DNA from: Candidatus Aenigmatarchaeota archaeon
Lineage (GTDB): Archaea; Aenigmatarchaeota; Aenigmatarchaeia; QMZP01; QMZT01
Length of the DNA stretch: 32,110 bases
Direction of reading: 5' to 3'
Assembly (NCBI GenBank): GCA_021162425.1
Contig: JAGGYQ010000075.1
Span: 1 to 32,110, forward strand
In this document: piece after piece, positions 2,987 to 12,498 of the stretch
Position numbering within the stretch: the stretch's first letter is position 1
Layout: each line of letters begins with the position of its first letter
Position numbers and translations under genes: made by a program
Notes under the pieces: generated by a model
What the model saw: only the letters and a program-made list of their open reading frames with translations
What the model was told of the DNA's origin: nothing
Databases searched by the model: none

Positions 2987-3376
2987 ATGAAAAAGGGTTT
3001 GAAAATACCCAAGAAGGATGTTGTGATATTCGTTATAAGAGAGGTTATGAAGAGGCACAACGAAGTCAATTCTTTGAGTGAGTTGAAAGGATTTGTGGAT
3101 ACACGGCTGAAGAGGGTTGATCAGAATCTCTCGATATCAGGAAAACGGTTAAGAAGGATATTTTCCGAAATTTCAGATATGAAGATGATAATTGAAACAA
3201 AAAGAAGCAAAAAAGCATTTGATAGGTGCCCATCATGTTCGCATGTGCTCAAGATGATTTACACCAAAAACCTGAAAGGTAAGAAAATACTCTATAAACT
3301 TGTGTGCGAAAAGTGTGGATATTCTGCTGCAAATGGCAAATGGATGCCCAGAAGATACAGGTTTATTAAATTATAG
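2987..3376 (+). CDS. Zinc-ribbon protein of unknown function
   Basis: CPSCSHVLKM...LVCEKCGYSA four-Cys ribbon; 6-nt convergent overlap with the idi-2 stop. Confidence 0.65.
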   Translation: MKKGLKIPKKDVVIFVIREVMKRHNEVNSLSELKGFVDTRLKRVDQNLSISGKRLRRIFSEISDMKMIIETKRSKKAFDRCPSCSHVLKMIYTKNLKGKKILYKLVCEKCGYSAANGKWMPRRYRFIKL

Positions 3377-4381
3377 TTGATTATTATATTCGATTCTTAT
3401 CCTTCTCAATTCTTTCAAATCTTTGCATCCCAGAAGAACCATTATGTCCTTCATCTGCTCAATTATCTTTTCAAGATATTCTTTGACTTTTTTCCATGAT
3501 TGTGTAGCTGGTTTTAACAAGGGATATGCCATGCCCACGAGGTCAGCTCCTAATGACAATGCTTTTACAATATCTTCAGCAGTTCTCATACCACCGGAAG
3601 CTATTACAGGAATGTTTACAGTCTCCAACACATCCAGTAACGCTTCGGCCGTTGGTATCCCCCATTCCTCAATATGTGAGACATCTTTTTTACCTCTATA
3701 CTTTTCAACTTTAACCCATGAAGTTCCACCAGCACCTGCTATATCTATGGCTTTAACGCCAGCTTTAACAAGTTTGTAAGCAACATAACCTGATATACCA
3801 TGTCCAACCTCTTTTGCCACCACAGGAAACTTTGCAGATTTTGTAAGTATTTTTATATGTTTCAACACGTTCTTCCAGTTCGCGTCACCTTCTGGCTGCG
3901 CCAATTCTTGTGCAGGGTTTAAATGAATTGCCAAACCATCTGCATCTATTTCATACACGAGATTTTTTATATCATCAATTTTGTATTGAGGAAGCTGGAC
4001 GGCTCCTATGTTTCCGAGAAGAAATATGTTTGGTGCGACATCCCTTACATAATATGTTTTTTTGAGGGCATGATTTTCAAGCATTGCTCTTTGGGAACCA
4101 ACTCCCATTCCTATGCCTAATAACTCAGCGGCTTTTGCAAGATTTTTGTTTATCCTTTCACCTAATTTTGTTCCACCAGTCATTGCTTCTATGAAAAGTG
4201 GATAATCGAATTTTTTGCCTAAAAATTTTGTTGAAAGGTCTATTTCATCTCTGTCAATCTCTGGTAAAGCTATATGTTCGAATTCTATACATTCGAACCC
4301 GTTCGATTTCGAAAACTGAACATCTTTCGTTAAGCATATCCTTATGTGTTCGCCCTTCCTGGACTTCGTGAGAGAAGACAT
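3371..4381 (-). CDS. fni: Type 2 isopentenyl-diphosphate delta-isomerase (FMN-dependent)
   Basis: EAMTGGT, GVGSQRAML, LGNIGAVQL, AIHLNPAQE, KEVGHGIS, DIAGAGGTSW, ASGGMR motifs. Confidence 0.95.
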   Translation of the reverse strand: MSSLTKSRKGEHIRICLTKDVQFSKSNGFECIEFEHIALPEIDRDEIDLSTKFLGKKFDYPLFIEAMTGGTKLGERINKNLAKAAELLGIGMGVGSQRAMLENHALKKTYYVRDVAPNIFLLGNIGAVQLPQYKIDDIKNLVYEIDADGLAIHLNPAQELAQPEGDANWKNVLKHIKILTKSAKFPVVAKEVGHGISGYVAYKLVKAGVKAIDIAGAGGTSWVKVEKYRGKKDVSHIEEWGIPTAEALLDVLETVNIPVIASGGMRTAEDIVKALSLGADLVGMAYPLLKPATQSWKKVKEYLEKIIEQMKDIMVLLGCKDLKELRRIRIEYNNQL

Positions 4382-4422: not shown

Positions 4423-5526
4423 TCAAAGCTTGCCTTTAAATCCCTCGACTAATTTGTCAAGCATATCCACGCTGTCGATTTTTTCGCCCCTTTCCCACTG
4501 CTCTTCAAAAATCTCCCTCTGTCTTCTTGCTTCTTCAGGATTTATCACCGTCAGATTGTGGGCAATCTTACTTTTCTGTTCCTTGTCTCTTACAGAATAC
4601 ACAACTCCCACATCCCCTATCAGCGTGGCAAGCCTCATTCTTAGGTTCTGCTCTCCTATCCTTATCTCAAATCTCTCCCCAAGCTGAAGGTATCCCGAAA
4701 GTATTTTCTTCGCCTCGTTCAGCATGCTGATGTATTTTATGAGATTCTTCGCTGTCCCTTCCCTGTTTGCTGAATATTTCCTCACCCTGTCCTTTCCTAA
4801 ATCCACCGACAACCTCAGCATCTCGAAATACGTCGGTCTCAACAGATTCTTTTTCAATATCAATACGCTGTCCTTGTATCTCAGCGGGTCGGCCTCTGTT
4901 GGAATTATAACACCAGGAGAAGTAGCTGTTATATCAACTTCTTTGTTCGACGGGAAGAGGTGGAATATGCCGAAATTCTCATAGGCTTCTGTGGAACTCT
5001 GACCGGGGTAAACAGTTTCTATGTTTGCGATGGACTCCCCGACTTTCCCGAGGAGTTCAAACCTTTTCGTTAGTTCATTTTTGTTTTTTAGCTTCTCAGT
5101 CGCATTCGCAAAATACTTTTCATGAATTCTTTTCAATTCTTCACTTTCCTTTTGTAGCAGGGGAGGGTCTGTGTAAATTTTCTTTTCCTCCCCGTTCGGA
5201 TAATTTTCTATATAACCTTCCAGCATTCTCGCTATTGTGAACATCCTTGTCAGAATGTGATTTAACGGACCTTTGACCGTTCTGCTCTTTCCATCGTATA
5301 TGCCCATTAACTCGAAGAACTCATCCGGTTCCCATGAGATTTCGATAACAGGATCGAACATCTCCCTCGCTTCCGTAACCTCGTGGAGACTCGAGGGGAC
5401 AGGTTTGTACCTTGGATTCTTCTGTAATTTCGAAAGATAGTCACCAACGATTTTTCCCGTCTCATCAATAATCTTGACTTGATAGAGTCCGTTTAAAAGT
5501 TCGGTCACTTTCTCCGTGTATATCAT
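4423..5526 (-). CDS. Conserved-looking protein of unknown function within isoprenoid cluster
   Basis: Uninterrupted 367-aa ORF between IPK and idi-2, same strand, about 30-40 nt spacers; no family recognised. Confidence 0.75.
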   Translation of the reverse strand: MIYTEKVTELLNGLYQVKIIDETGKIVGDYLSKLQKNPRYKPVPSSLHEVTEAREMFDPVIEISWEPDEFFELMGIYDGKSRTVKGPLNHILTRMFTIARMLEGYIENYPNGEEKKIYTDPPLLQKESEELKRIHEKYFANATEKLKNKNELTKRFELLGKVGESIANIETVYPGQSSTEAYENFGIFHLFPSNKEVDITATSPGVIIPTEADPLRYKDSVLILKKNLLRPTYFEMLRLSVDLGKDRVRKYSANREGTAKNLIKYISMLNEAKKILSGYLQLGERFEIRIGEQNLRMRLATLIGDVGVVYSVRDKEQKSKIAHNLTVINPEEARRQREIFEEQWERGEKIDSVDMLDKLVEGFKGKL

Positions 5527-5556: not shown

Positions 5557-6333
5557 CTAACCCCTCACAATCGTCCCCAGCCCCCTTTCTCCGAGGAGTG
5601 ATTTTTTCAGAATTCCCGGCTTCAGACCATTTATTATCTCGGTCTCCACACCCATCCCGAGCGATTTCTTGACTTTTGTCACCATCCCGCCCGTCACATC
5701 CGCGATTCCGTCAGAGGACGAGAGCAGGTTTTCAATATCCCTGAAATTCACCCGGGTTATTTCCTTTATTACCCTCCCTTCCGGGTCAAGAACTCCGTCC
5801 GTCTTGCCCGCCATTATTATCCTTTCCGGTTTCAGCTTCTCTGCCAGAAACCTGAATATTTCTTCCGTTGAAATAATACAGCATCCCTTTCCCAAATCGA
5901 AACACACATCTCCGTACGGAACGGGGATGAGACCACTGGACAGCGAAAGTTCAATGGGTTTCGTGTACCATTCGATAATTTTATCGTTCCTGGCTATGCA
6001 GGAAGCGGACGGCTGAACCGAAAAGGCCTTTTCCCCCGCTTCTATCAGAGAAGAAACAATTATCCTGTTTAACCTTGCAGCATCATCCGCAACCTTTGAA
6101 AACCCTTCCCAGCTTTTCTCGTTTATAATCCCTTTGTGGGTTTCATATCTGCTCGCGGAAACATGCGGGAAACTCCCTCCCCCGTGCCCGACAAGCAGCA
6201 GGAAATCCCGTTCGCTCTTCGCTTCATGTATTTCCCTGCACACCCGTTTCAGAACGGATTCCCTCACGGTGTACGGTCTGGACTTATCGGTTATGAGCGA
6301 ACCGCCAAGTTTCAGGAACACAAGGTTTTTCAT
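5557..6333 (-). CDS. ipk: Isopentenyl phosphate kinase (amino acid kinase superfamily)
   Basis: From internal ATG at 6333: MKNLVFLKLGGSLITDKS...LLVGHGGGSFPHVSA...DVTGGMVTKV; the GHGGGSFGH-like His motif is typical of IPK. ORF-track start at 6474 looks over-extended. Confidence 0.9.
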   Translation of the reverse strand: MKNLVFLKLGGSLITDKSRPYTVRESVLKRVCREIHEAKSERDFLLLVGHGGGSFPHVSASRYETHKGIINEKSWEGFSKVADDAARLNRIIVSSLIEAGEKAFSVQPSASCIARNDKIIEWYTKPIELSLSSGLIPVPYGDVCFDLGKGCCIISTEEIFRFLAEKLKPERIIMAGKTDGVLDPEGRVIKEITRVNFRDIENLLSSSDGIADVTGGMVTKVKKSLGMGVETEIINGLKPGILKKSLLGERGLGTIVRG

Positions 6334-7303: not shown

Positions 7304-8119
7304 ATGAACAAAAAAATTCTTGCCGTATCTTTCGAAGGAGTTATCAATCACGGGGTCTACGAGTGCTGTGTGGTTTCACTGAATGCATACCACAGGATTT
7401 CAAAGGAGAGTTTTTTCAGGAGACACATGAAACCGAAGGAAATTGAACTGATGAAGAACACACTCGTCGTGAGGGGATTCGTTCTGTTCAGACCTCTGGT
7501 TTCAAGGGCTGAGGATTACTTCCTTGTCCTGAAAATGATAGAGGGTGATGTGGACGGGATTTACGAACTCCTGGTTTCGGAATCGAGAGACAAGTTCGAA
7601 ACGTTTCTCAGAAGATTCGAGATACTGAAGAGGGAAACCCCGGAGAATATCCTGAGAAATTTTCATGAGAACTTTTACCGTGAGAGGAGGAGGCTGAGAG
7701 AACGGAATCCAGAAGCATGGCTCACCCTCCAGAAGCCGATCGAAGAGAATATAAACGAATTGAGGAAGTTATCGAAAAAATTTGTGATATACGTAACGAC
7801 AAACAAGGACAAGGAAACATGCCTGCTCCTTCTCAGGAGATATGGAGTGGATTTCGTTAAGGAGACGAACGTGCTCCCGAAAGAGGACGGAGATGTAAAA
7901 GACAAGATTGGTCTCATCCTGAAAAGGGAGAATGTGACTCCTGAGAAAATTTTCCTGATAGACGATATCTTTCACAGAGACCTTGCAGAGATCAAAAACA
8001 GAGGGGTTAACGTCTTCCTTATAAGAGGAGGTTATTCCTTTCCCTGGGACGTGGAAAGGGCGGAAGCGAACGGGATCGGAATTCTGGAGAGAGGAAATTT
8101 TGTTAACGGACTGATCTGA
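7304..8119 (+). CDS. HAD-fold protein with degenerate catalytic motif I
   Basis: ILAVSFEGVINHG at motif I (no Asp nucleophile), IYVTTNKD, IFLIDDIFHRDLAEIKNRGVNVFLIRGGY. Confidence 0.75.
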   Translation: MNKKILAVSFEGVINHGVYECCVVSLNAYHRISKESFFRRHMKPKEIELMKNTLVVRGFVLFRPLVSRAEDYFLVLKMIEGDVDGIYELLVSESRDKFETFLRRFEILKRETPENILRNFHENFYRERRRLRERNPEAWLTLQKPIEENINELRKLSKKFVIYVTTNKDKETCLLLLRRYGVDFVKETNVLPKEDGDVKDKIGLILKRENVTPEKIFLIDDIFHRDLAEIKNRGVNVFLIRGGYSFPWDVERAEANGIGILERGNFVNGLI

Positions 8120-8852
8120 AGTATCCTGCGATTTCGGACACATCCCTGAATATATAGTCAGGATTTTCCTTTTCGAGAAATCTTTTAGTTCCCATCCCGC
8201 ACAAGACAGCGATTGATACGCATCCTGCCTTCTTGGCAGACCTTATATCTATTTCCGTGTCCCCCACAAACGCCGATTCTTTTGGCGGGATATTTATGTG
8301 TTTGCACGCCTTTACTATACCGCCCGCCTTGTCTGCATACGCCTCTCCTATCACGACCTCGAAAAAATCACCTACATTTTCCTCCAGCCATTTCCTTGTG
8401 AATTCCGCTTTCGTCACCGTTACAGCCCCTATCTTATAACCTTTCCTGTGAAGAACCTTTGCGCCCCTCACAGATGGTTCTATCGTCTTCATGAGATGTT
8501 TTGATCGGTAAAAGATGGATTTTACATGTCCGGAAAGTTTGTCTAGGAATTCTTGGTCGCACGTGTATTTCTTCTTCAGGGAATTAACAAAACTTACAGG
8601 ATTGTTTCTATCCAAAATCTCCTCCACACTCCTGTTATCTCTGATTATATAGAACAACGCCTCTGCGAGCTGGGGGAAATCGTTGAACTCCTTGAAGGCC
8701 ATGAGATGCCATGTTTCACTCGGGGAAAACGGGAATGAAAGTCCGTATTTTTCGAATGCCTCCCTCAGGGCGAAATTTATGGCTCTGGACGAATCCCTAA
8801 ACACACCACCAACATCGAAAATAAACGCCTTTATCTTACTCAATCTCCACAC
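8103..8852 (-). CDS. HAD-superfamily phosphatase (phosphoglycolate phosphatase-like)
   Basis: KAFIFDVGGVFRDSS, GAVTVT, FVGDTEIDIRSAKKAGC; 17-nt convergent overlap with the upstream + HAD gene. Confidence 0.85.
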   Translation of the reverse strand: MWRLSKIKAFIFDVGGVFRDSSRAINFALREAFEKYGLSFPFSPSETWHLMAFKEFNDFPQLAEALFYIIRDNRSVEEILDRNNPVSFVNSLKKKYTCDQEFLDKLSGHVKSIFYRSKHLMKTIEPSVRGAKVLHRKGYKIGAVTVTKAEFTRKWLEENVGDFFEVVIGEAYADKAGGIVKACKHINIPPKESAFVGDTEIDIRSAKKAGCVSIAVLCGMGTKRFLEKENPDYIFRDVSEIAGYFRSVR

Positions 8853-10023
8853 CCCTCTGTTTAAGCAAACTTATCACATCTGGTGTTATGATTTCCTCTC
8901 TTTCGGAAAGGTCAAGTTTTCTCGGCTCTCCCATGGGCTCGGCGATGTACACAGGGTAATCCTTTCCCGAATTCCTGATAAATTTCTCCACCTCTTCCTT
9001 CACGCTTTCTGCATCCTTCCCGTTGGTCAGTATCGCGACCGAAGGACCGGTGTCCATCGTGAAGTATGCTGTCAGTCCGAGTTCCCTTCTCAGGAGAACG
9101 ACCTTCCTCGCTATGTCAAGTGAGAATGGCTCCCAGTTGAAGAAGCCATCTCCTGTTACAAGCAGGTGGAACAGATTCAGGGCATCATTTTCCGCATGCC
9201 TCCCTATACCCTCAATATCATTCTTTCGTATACACTCCATGAGGTCCATCACATTCCCCGCCTTCGAAAGCGCCCAGTACTTGTACAGGGGGGATTTGAC
9301 CGCAGCCTTGTGAGCGGATTCTGTTTTGAACATCGCTGGTATGGGAACCACCACGAGTTTTATATCCACGTCCTTATCGATCCTTACCGCGTAGCTGTCC
9401 TCCGATCGTATTCCGGGATGGGAGAACCAAACTGAAAACCCTCCGGCAGCCGATGATGTTCCTGACCCCGAGAGAAATCTGGCAAGAACGCTCAGGAACC
9501 TGTTATTCCCGGAGACTTCAGGGAGGACGGATTCGACGAGCGCCTTCGCAACCGCCCCGCTCGCTGAGGCCGATAGGCCCAAGCCCTTCCCCTTGGCAGG
9601 GACCTTTGGTATGTGTCTCGACACGACCACACATTTCGTTCTTATCCCTGTCATCTCGCGGAAAACGTTCAAAATATTGTTGAATCTTTTGAGTTCCTTC
9701 CCTTCCGCGGGCCTGTCCCCGAATATCACCACGTCATCTTTCAAAGACTTATCGAATCTTATGTACGTCTTCGTTCTGAACGAATCGTTCGTGAGTTTCA
9801 GGGAAGGGAAGTACGCTATTCTTTTCGCGCTATCCACCATTCCGAGGTATTTCTCTATCCCGAGAATGGGGTTCGCCTCGACGAGTGCTTCGCCCTCCAC
9901 ATCATCCTTTCTCGGAATCTTGGGCCATTCTTCCTCCTTGAAAACATGGGAAAGAACCCATTCTTTAACTTCATTATCTCCTTTCTCAAGTTTCTTCATT
10001 TCGTCCTGGCTGAATTCCACCAT
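8836..10023 (-). CDS. GHMP-superfamily mevalonate-(di/bis)phosphate decarboxylase-like protein
   Basis: EANPILGIEKYLG, GKGLGLSASASGAVAKAL, SGSGTSSAAGGFSVW, AYFTMDTGPSVAIL (MDD-like D-x-GP motif). Confidence 0.85.
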   Translation of the reverse strand: MVEFSQDEMKKLEKGDNEVKEWVLSHVFKEEEWPKIPRKDDVEGEALVEANPILGIEKYLGMVDSAKRIAYFPSLKLTNDSFRTKTYIRFDKSLKDDVVIFGDRPAEGKELKRFNNILNVFREMTGIRTKCVVVSRHIPKVPAKGKGLGLSASASGAVAKALVESVLPEVSGNNRFLSVLARFLSGSGTSSAAGGFSVWFSHPGIRSEDSYAVRIDKDVDIKLVVVPIPAMFKTESAHKAAVKSPLYKYWALSKAGNVMDLMECIRKNDIEGIGRHAENDALNLFHLLVTGDGFFNWEPFSLDIARKVVLLRRELGLTAYFTMDTGPSVAILTNGKDAESVKEEVEKFIRNSGKDYPVYIAEPMGEPRKLDLSEREEIITPDVISLLKQRGVEIE

Positions 10024-10039
10024 AATATCACCTCTATGT

Positions 10040-10942
10040 TCACTTCTTATCAGGATTCAGGGACCTCTCCTCCATGACCCTTTTTATCTTCTCTATGTTC
10101 TCTGCTGACATGTCTTTGGTCTCTATTATCCTTTCGATCTTTTCGAATATGATGTTCATTATCTTCTCATACGCTTCTTTCATGTTATCACTCGGTATTA
10201 CAGGGACCCCGACCTTTTTCGCATCCTCGCACTGGACATCCTGCATCATCCTGTATTTCTCCAGAGCCGGTATCAAACGCTGCGAATTTCCCTTGAGATG
10301 AGAAATGCGGTCCCTTATTTCAATTCTTCTCCTCCACTCCTCCATGGAATCCACTCTTAATACGATGGGTATGACGCTGGGGTGATTCAGGATGTTTGAA
10401 TCGTATTGCGAGGGGAGGAAGTGAAGGTATTCTATGACCATGGATTCACCATCCCTTATTCCCCTGTCCGCAACTATCCTCTCCATCAGATTGTTCATTA
10501 TTTTCGCCTGCAGGTAGAAACCCTTCACTATGTTTTCTTCCGTTTCCTTCCCGTCCCCTACGAACTGCCATGCCCCGTAAACCGAGGTGAAGAATTCGGG
10601 ATGTTCTTCCTTACTTATGAGTTCCCTGTAGGATGCTCGTATCGCATCACCACCCATCACATCCCCTATACCGAACGCCGTCGCCACCTCCCTCGCGAGG
10701 CTGGTCTTCCCTGCACCGGGCATCCCTGAAATAATGGGAATGAGAGGAAGTTTTATTTCGCCTGCAAAAACCCCATCCTTGTACGTTTTGAAGAGATTGT
10801 ATCTTTTCAGATATTTTTCTCCAAAATCCCTTAATTTGGTTTCAACTTCCTCCGTGCTTTTACAGGAGGATAGTATTTCTCCTACCCCTTTCAACCCGAG
10901 ACCTGTTGAGAGTAATAAGGAGTTTTTATCCGAGTGTATCAT
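10040..10942 (-). CDS. P-loop kinase related to 2-phosphoglycerate kinase; candidate mevalonate-3-phosphate 5-kinase
   Basis: IIPxISGMPGAGKTSLA P-loop region (PIISGMPGAGKTSLA), GGDAIRASYRELIS, TSVYGAWQFVGDG, GFYLQAKIMNNLMERIV, VIEYLHFLPSQY. Placement between two GHMP genes supports the role. Confidence 0.7.
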   Translation of the reverse strand: MIHSDKNSLLLSTGLGLKGVGEILSSCKSTEEVETKLRDFGEKYLKRYNLFKTYKDGVFAGEIKLPLIPIISGMPGAGKTSLAREVATAFGIGDVMGGDAIRASYRELISKEEHPEFFTSVYGAWQFVGDGKETEENIVKGFYLQAKIMNNLMERIVADRGIRDGESMVIEYLHFLPSQYDSNILNHPSVIPIVLRVDSMEEWRRRIEIRDRISHLKGNSQRLIPALEKYRMMQDVQCEDAKKVGVPVIPSDNMKEAYEKIMNIIFEKIERIIETKDMSAENIEKIKRVMEERSLNPDKK

Positions 10943-10954
10943 TTTATCCCCTCC

Positions 10955-11920
10955 TTATTTAACGATCTTCGCCCCGCTCGCCACTTTGTACTCCACCGGT
11001 TTGTAGCCCCTCTTTATCAGTTCTTTCTTGACCTTGGGGGCGTCCTTCCCCCAAGAGAAAACATTTATAACCTTCCCGCCACCAGCAGTCCAATAACATG
11101 ACAGTCCCTTCGCCCGTATCTCCTCCACGTCTATACACGCTGCCATCATTTCCTTCTTCCGGCACCTCAAACCGAATCCGGACGATTCTATCAGGTAGTG
11201 GGCATTTGCGCAGTTTTCCTCTGCCACGGAGAATACGATGTCCCAGTCTTTGTGAAGTAAACCCTCTTTTATCTTTGCTATCCAAACAGGTATCATCTTC
11301 AGCCTGTATTCATAGAACGGATTGCTTCTCGTTGCATGGAATATCTCCTCTGCGGTAACTCTTGTGGGATAATCAAAGGTCAGAGCGAAAATTTTCAGGT
11401 TCTTCAGATCGTTCTCATCTGCTATAAGCTTCCCGTAGATCTTTGGATAGCCGTCAACGTTCAGTTCGTTCAACCCCCCGTATAACGCTCTCACGGAAGA
11501 TTCGGACAGCATCATTGAAATTTCAGCCAGCCTGTCCCTGCTCATATGGGTTTCGAAGAGGTCGTCAAGTGCGACCACCAGGGCAGCGGCACCTGCATCA
11601 CTCGCTCCGGAATATATCTTGTAGTTTCTCGAGTCTATTTTCAGACCGACGTTCTTCACTCCAGCCTCCCTCTTGAATATATCAACAATTCTGTAAACAT
11701 CCCTCAGTTTCTCCTTTTCGATGGGTTTACCATCAACGTAAAATGTTATATCGTTCGAATCCCCCACAACCTCGACCCTAGTTTCCGTTCTCGTCTCTTC
11801 TTTCAGATCCGTTACAGCCAAGCCCATGGTGTTATGTAGAGGGATCCTATCTGGATGGACAGAAGAAACGAAAACTATGGGTATGGTTGGATATGCGACA
11901 GCAACACTTTCCCTCTTCAT
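10955..11920 (-). CDS. Mevalonate-3-kinase-like GHMP/MDD-fold protein
   Basis: AYPTIPIVFVSSV..RIPLHNTMGLAVTD, YSGASDAGAAALV, SESSVRALYGGLNE, FALTFDYPTRVTAEEIFHATRSNPFYEYRLK; resembles remembered Thermoplasma Ta1305 blocks. The catalytic Asp of decarboxylases is absent (SCYWTAGGGKVINV). Confidence 0.75.
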   Translation of the reverse strand: MKRESVAVAYPTIPIVFVSSVHPDRIPLHNTMGLAVTDLKEETRTETRVEVVGDSNDITFYVDGKPIEKEKLRDVYRIVDIFKREAGVKNVGLKIDSRNYKIYSGASDAGAAALVVALDDLFETHMSRDRLAEISMMLSESSVRALYGGLNELNVDGYPKIYGKLIADENDLKNLKIFALTFDYPTRVTAEEIFHATRSNPFYEYRLKMIPVWIAKIKEGLLHKDWDIVFSVAEENCANAHYLIESSGFGLRCRKKEMMAACIDVEEIRAKGLSCYWTAGGGKVINVFSWGKDAPKVKKELIKRGYKPVEYKVASGAKIVK

Positions 11921-11931
11921 TCAAATCGCCT

Positions 11932-12435
11932 TTATGACATATCTTTCAATCTCTTATTTAAATACATTTCCAACGCTCCAACGTGATACGGATGGAACTC
12001 ACCATTCGCAATTAGTTCCCTGAGTTCTTCCAGACTGATCCACCTCGCACCCCTCGCCTCTTCTGTCTCCTTCGGTTCGCCCCTCGCCTTCACTATGAAG
12101 ACGAATCCCACGTACGGATAAGGACCTTTCAACATCTGCTCACAACAGAAGGGAATGAAGGCGAAGGATTTATCTCCTTCATGTTCGAATATGCCCGTGT
12201 GGGTTATTTCGAGTGATTCGAGGTCCAGACCTGTTTCTTCCTTTAACTCCCTCTGCGCGGTTTTTCTGATATCCTCGAATTCCCTGATCTTCCCCGCGGG
12301 AAGTTCGTAGAACCCCGTGTACTTCGGATCGCTCTCGGGCTTGAACCTCTTCTGTACGAGCACTTCGGTCTTGCCCGTTCTCGGATTTTTCCTCTCTACT
12401 ATGAAGGCCACTGTGGGAATCGAGAATTTCTCCAT
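11932..12435 (-). CDS. NUDIX hydrolase
   Basis: Exact Nudix box GKIREFEDIRKTAQRELKEETGL (GX5EX7REUXEEXGU). Confidence 0.95.
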   Translation of the reverse strand: MEKFSIPTVAFIVERKNPRTGKTEVLVQKRFKPESDPKYTGFYELPAGKIREFEDIRKTAQRELKEETGLDLESLEITHTGIFEHEGDKSFAFIPFCCEQMLKGPYPYVGFVFIVKARGEPKETEEARGARWISLEELRELIANGEFHPYHVGALEMYLNKRLKDMS

Positions 12436-12440
12436 AACCT

Positions 12441-12455
12441 AACTTTGACAAAGTT
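12441..12455. promoter_or_regulatory. Perfect 15-bp palindrome AACTTTGACAAAGTT in NUDIX promoter/leader
   Basis: AACTTTG-A-CAAAGTT between a TATA-like ttatttaaat and the NUDIX ATG (12435). Confidence 0.5.
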
Positions 12456-12498
12456 ATTTAAATGTGAAAAGGGATAGTTATCATTAAAAGGCGATCTC

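Follow-up and report, generated by a model that had tools for sequence, protein, structure and literature searches.

The locus described here raises the question of how an archaeon with no recognisable mevalonate kinase (MVK) might make its isoprenoids. It lies in a window of 32,110 nt (contig JAGGYQ010000075.1 of assembly GCA_021162425.1, positions 1 to 32,110, to which all window coordinates refer) from a member of the Aenigmatarchaeota, a lineage of DPANN archaea, whose genome amounts to 954 kb in 75 contigs and is 92.6% complete with 0.18% contamination; the archaeon is tiny and probably symbiotic. A type III lower mevalonate pathway is established in the Thermoplasmatales, with Ta1305 as mevalonate-3-kinase (M3K), Ta0762 as mevalonate-3-phosphate 5-kinase (M3P5K) and Ta0893/PtoMBD as bisphosphomevalonate decarboxylase (MBD) (PMC5177888, PMC9254496). 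A first-pass annotation of the window, made from the sequence alone, had proposed a near-complete, physically clustered version of this route, and this proposal was supported, with the caveat that such clustering is a general trait of M3K-bearing DPANN genomes. From the identity of the genes as judged by family, residues and tree, from their order and co-occurrence, and from the absence of MVK, phosphomevalonate kinase (PMK) and AcnX from the assembly, we put at roughly 85% the probability that the operon encodes the Thermoplasma-type pathway and that this archaeon has no other isoprenoid route.

The genes stand on the minus strand and are transcribed in the order NUDIX hydrolase, M3K homologue (10955..11920), P-loop kinase (10040..10942), decarboxylase (8836..10023) and HAD-family phosphatase. 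The first four are separated by spacers of 11, 12 and 16 nt, while the last 17 nt of the decarboxylase gene also belong to the HAD gene. The first four open reading frames, from the NUDIX to the decarboxylase gene, were found exactly as the first-pass annotation had described them.

For the M3K homologue, the top NCBIfam model was that of mevalonate-3-kinase (NF040848, 9.7e-39), although its 133 bits lie under the equivalog cut-off of 440 bits, which was probably set on close Thermoplasmatales sequences. Its top PDB match was Ta1305 (4rkp, 3e-20), at an identity of only 28%. All of the Ta1305 motif blocks named in the annotation were located, namely AYPTI, RIPLHN, SGASDAGAA, SESSVRALYGGL and FDY. 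The Glu of the SES motif (Glu140) is present in 24 of 24 M3K and in none of 47 decarboxylases; conversely, the decarboxylase Asp occurs in 46 of the 47 decarboxylases and in no M3K, and the alignment confirmed the lack that the annotation had noted in the window protein, which has YWTAGGG at this place. Loop residue Arg187 is also conserved in all 24 and corresponds to Arg185 of Ta1305, which is needed for activity and whose Ala variant is inactive (PMC9254496). A tree of 69 rows, in which Ta1305 and PtoMBD were included as PDB fragments (Ta0762 being compared through its NCBIfam model only), placed all M3K rows, including Ta1305 as a long branch, on one side of a 100/100 branch, apart from the diphosphomevalonate (DMD), phosphomevalonate (PMD) and bisphosphomevalonate decarboxylases. 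Clustering with MVK, PMK or ordinary DMD, which the annotation had named as the outcome contrary to its proposal, was seen neither for the M3K homologue nor for the decarboxylase.

The rest of the genome was then relevant, as the annotation had suggested checking it for a classical mevalonate kinase and for phosphomevalonate dehydratase (AcnX). A whole-genome search for the GHMP kinase family recovered two proteins of the window only, with no MVK and no PMK, and no AcnX was found in the assembly. HMG-CoA synthase (archaeal HMGS), HMGR and a prenyltransferase are encoded elsewhere. Downstream of the block and on the same strand are isopentenyl phosphate kinase (IPK, 5557..6333; NF040647, 198 bits, cut-off 120) and type 2 isopentenyl-diphosphate isomerase (idi-2, 3371..4381; TIGR02151, 408 bits, cut-off 281), both of which the annotation had recognised and which score above their curated cut-offs. 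With these two genes the route is complete on paper from HMG-CoA synthesis to dimethylallyl diphosphate (DMAPP). Since MVK, PMK and AcnX are lacking, the mevalonate-3-phosphate route looks like the only one of this genome, and the classical, haloarchaeal and archaea-type routes were rejected.

Following the biochemical precedents (PMC5177888, PMC9254496), substrates and reactions may be assigned to these proteins from their sequences. HMGS and HMGR would produce mevalonate, which M3K would phosphorylate on its 3-OH to give mevalonate 3-phosphate, and the long P-loop kinase would then phosphorylate the 5-OH. The decarboxylase is predicted to act on the resulting mevalonate 3,5-bisphosphate independently of ATP, with loss of the 3-phosphate and CO2, to yield isopentenyl phosphate. 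IPK and idi-2 would convert this to isopentenyl diphosphate and DMAPP, and the prenyltransferase would elongate the chain.

The second of these kinases is less straightforward to assign. The annotation had called it 2-phosphoglycerate kinase (2-PGK)-like, a resemblance that holds, with the nuance that the scores to M3P5K models are about equal. Over the whole protein, the NCBIfam 2-PGK model gives 129 bits and M3P5K 119 bits, while over the 200-aa core M3P5K is marginally ahead (120.5 versus 115.3 bits). The higher whole-protein score of 2-PGK arises because part of an N-terminal extension aligns to that model, the short M3P5K model lacking this region; the ~65 extra N-terminal residues searched alone matched no model. 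A fold search recovered generic P-loop kinases only (E ~3e-4) and was uninformative, and no homologues that could serve as an outgroup were found on plasmids. The protein could accordingly be a 2-PGK, or another small-molecule kinase that merely adjoins M3K, with the true 5-kinase being some other, unrecognised protein. Besides the whole-protein score, this explanation is favoured by the Thermoplasma-like Micrarchaeota, in which a short kinase (~205 aa, 202–237 bits to M3P5K) is just 25–29% identical to the long form. That same short kinase, however, takes the same place beside M3K, and no further GHMP protein of the genome could be proposed as the 5-kinase. Furthermore, the long kinase occurs in nine of 160 genomes of the phylum, a set identical to that with a strong M3K match, and the two genes are adjacent (in G078 the complete M3K is located at the edge of one contig, and an M3K fragment opens the kinase-bearing contig). 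Such an exact overlap would have a chance of ~1 in 10^14 if the genomes were independent, a figure whose true weight is lower because they are related. An unconnected kinase is hence quite unlikely. The sequence itself leaves the assignment even, the genomic context favours the M3P5K role, and we propose the latter. In one relative (G091, L037:7151-7982) the long kinase is split between two frames, representing a frameshift, a pseudogene or an assembly error.

The decarboxylase was best matched by the NCBIfam model for bisphosphomevalonate decarboxylase (NF040847, 2.7e-52, 178 bits), with PMD at 148.5 bits. MBD of Picrophilus torridus (7t71) was its top PDB match both by sequence (1.6e-31) and by fold (1.3e-29), the latter with a structure model of pLDDT 93. 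In the tree it falls within a clade of 13 rows (100/99), together with the MBD of Picrophilus and Micrarchaeota (97/77). Four of its members, hereafter group A, are the window protein and those of G141, G143 and Diapherotrites DeMMO3. These retain the Lys and Asp of the catalytic triad (Lys58 and Asp324 in the window), while the triad Arg, described as invariant in PMC5177888, is replaced by Ser in all four (Ser190 in the window, codon 9454..9456, minus strand); all M3K have Arg here, as do 42 of the 43 decarboxylases outside this group. The same four proteins have Lys at window position 76 (codon 9796..9798, minus strand), where 38 of the 43 others have Ser and no other row has Lys, one distant, gappy row showing Arg. 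The local alignments of the window protein and PtoMBD are free of gaps (LSGSGTSSAAGG against VSGSGTRSAAGN, and FPSLKLTND against FPSISFTTN). We infer from this pair of exchanges that the positive charge of the active site may have been relocated, with Lys76 replacing the triad Arg. The first Ser of the P-loop is altered too, to Leu in three Aenigmatarchaeota, Thr in Diapherotrites and Glu in Picrophilus. The protein is termed an MBD-clade decarboxylase rather than a strict MBD because one defining feature, the triad Arg, is missing. In the comparison with Thermoplasma enzymes that the annotation had recommended, M3K groups with Ta1305 and the decarboxylase with Picrophilus MBD; the kinase differs by its long 2-PGK-like form and the decarboxylase by the Ser at the triad Arg.

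Function as an MBD is the best reading of these data, though the enzyme might instead be an ATP-dependent PMD, with M3K in a side role. Such an activity was proposed for a second branch of decarboxylases that lies outside (group C: G066, G067 and G012), which in G066 and G067 stand beside MVK and IPK and are best read as PMD. The group A relative in G143 is also marginally nearer to the PMD than to the MBD model (149.8 versus 147.2 bits). Against this, the window protein itself favours MBD by the scores given above, the tree unites the group A clade with Picrophilus MBD and not with group C, the three Aenigmatarchaeota have Leu in place of the first P-loop Ser, and the genome holds no recognisable enzyme producing mevalonate 5-phosphate. 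A PMD in this operon therefore appears quite unlikely. At the group C loci L055:7373-10543 and L056:8078-11208, an MBD-like protein with a long N-terminus is encoded between MVK and IPK; it may be an ATP-dependent PMD near the ancestor of MBD in Aenigmatarchaeota.

The peculiarities of the two enzymes may also be taken together. The operon might represent a fifth, separate form of lower pathway, its mevalonate-3-phosphate kinase having arisen by independent recruitment from the 2-PGK family and the catalytic cation of its decarboxylase having moved from the triad Arg to a Lys on another strand (R190S/S76K), with a changed mechanism or substrate. We consider this unlikely, though conceivable, and retain the Thermoplasma-type pathway as the preferred explanation.

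The block is syntenic over ~10 kb with G141, a member of another genus of the same family, whose M3K is 87% identical. Four genomes (G000, G141, G143 and G137) hold M3K with neither an ordinary DMD nor any other GHMP kinase. In Diapherotrites DeMMO3 the genes run M3K-kinase-HAD-like-MBD-IPK-idi2 on a contig that also carries HMGR, and in the Diapherotrites isolate Zod, HAD-M3K-kinase is preceded by HMGR-HMGS-thiolase; both genomes lack a further GHMP kinase. A cluster unique to the window genome was consequently rejected, the block being common to DPANN genomes with M3K. A different arrangement is seen in group B (G122, G091, G093, G094 and G078), where M3K and the long kinase are accompanied by an MVK-type GHMP kinase and by an ordinary DMD, which exceeded its cut-off in the genomes scanned. 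At loci L036:13761-18349, L037:6190-9900, L038, L039 and L041, M3K and the long kinase are followed by the ordinary DMD and MVK. Two parallel lower mevalonate pathways would be present in these genomes.

Within the family of the window genome (f1) the distribution is patchy, as six of the nine members searched (G142 and G144–G148) lack M3K and any decarboxylase match, and one of these, G144, belongs to the same genus as the carrier G143. We read this as patchy loss or gain of isoprenoid synthesis. Such a pattern might be expected if the block were foreign DNA or a binning error, with a contig from a relative of Thermoplasmatales or Micrarchaeota placed in this assembly. The synteny with a different genus of the family, the low identity of M3K to Ta1305 and the low contamination of the assembly make this very improbable, and contamination from Thermoplasmatales in particular was rejected by the first two.

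A number of observations weigh against the operon being the sole, Thermoplasma-type route. None of its proteins attains the curated equivalog cut-offs of the Thermoplasma enzymes, the P-loop kinase is about equidistant from 2-PGK and M3P5K, and the decarboxylase has Ser for the triad Arg. The part missing from an assembly that is 92.6% complete could hold an MVK gene. Finally, group B genomes have kept M3K and its partner kinase while possessing MVK and DMD, so this pair is not strictly tied to the absence of MVK.

Of the remaining genes, the NUDIX hydrolase (11932..12435, minus strand; Pfam NUDIX, 3.7e-17) is the first of the operon. It is kept at the same place in G141 (72%), whereas in G143 and group B no NUDIX gene is the immediate neighbour of M3K. 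A TATA-like TTTAAATA box at ~12455-12463, ~25 nt upstream of its ATG, would fit a single leaderless transcript. A HAD gene like the HAD-family phosphatase (8103..8852, minus strand; Pfam HAD_2, 1.8e-16) also occurs at about the same position in G141, G143 and Diapherotrites. HAD or HAD-like genes recur in or beside clusters of different phyla (window 8103-8852, L033:10180-11602, L063:11864-12715 and L074:9041-9925), and a role for these proteins as phosphatases in the mevalonate pathway is possible. The IPK reading frame is open to 6474; its start was set to the Met ahead of the LGG motif, and 6333 is probably the true start. Between IPK and idi-2, a 367-aa protein (4423-5526) has no match in Pfam and is missing from the same place in G141.

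These results bear on how such archaea are judged from their genomes. One survey concluded that the absence of mevalonate-pathway genes leaves Aenigmarchaeota unable to form membranes de novo (PMC8407114), and pipelines that seek MVK, PMK and DMD score genomes of this kind as incapable of isoprenoid synthesis. As every step between HMG-CoA synthesis and DMAPP has a predicted enzyme here, dependence on a host for lipids needs re-examination in this family. A sole type III route in a lineage with no demonstrated link to acid also bears on whether the pathway originated as an acid adaptation, and the clade-wide loss of the triad Arg provides a natural enzyme with which the catalytic role of that residue could be probed directly.

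Earlier work has described homologues of the type III enzymes from Micrarchaeota, Aenigmatarchaeota, Altiarchaeota and Heimdallarchaeia. What looks new here is the sole, operonic type III route in Aenigmatarchaeota, the long kinase and the pair of Arg-to-Ser and Ser-to-Lys exchanges, for none of which a report was found in a search of openly accessible main texts. Like the Thermoplasma pathway, the window combines the same three enzyme classes with IPK and lacks MVK; its M3K shares the SES Glu and loop Arg and lacks the Asp, and its decarboxylase belongs to the clade of MBD, with Asp and Lys kept and the P-loop altered. Unlike that pathway, the genes are adjacent in an operon, the kinase is ~65 residues longer at its N-terminus and equally near to 2-PGK, and the decarboxylase has Ser at the triad Arg and a unique Lys76. 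Published primers for Ta0762 place its start directly ahead of the P-loop region, so the Thermoplasma enzyme would be of the short form. With regard to 2-PGK itself, its model is the best for the whole kinase, yet the long kinase is found only in genomes with M3K. Aenigmatarchaeota metagenome-assembled genomes with type III homologues that also hold PMK and DMD (PMC11052028) come from the same phylum and match group B, whereas the group of the window lacks PMK, DMD and MVK.

In the Micrarchaeota, the type III pathway of Ca. Micrarchaeum (PMC8975820) has M3K mostly 50–57% identical to that of the window and adjacent genes in several genomes, but differs in its short, Ta0762-like kinase and in an MBD that retains Arg. 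As a check of the method, no HMGR was found in Micrarchaeum A_DKE, agreeing with published Ca. Micrarchaeum harzensis (PMC8975820), and its pathway is therefore incomplete. At loci L065, L066, L070, L072 and L080 the micrarchaeal M3K nests within DPANN M3K (53–56% identical to the window), while the MBD groups with Picrophilus and the kinase is Thermoplasma-like. The three micrarchaeal type III genes may thus differ in origin, in contrast to the Thermoplasmatales source inferred for all three in PMC8975820.

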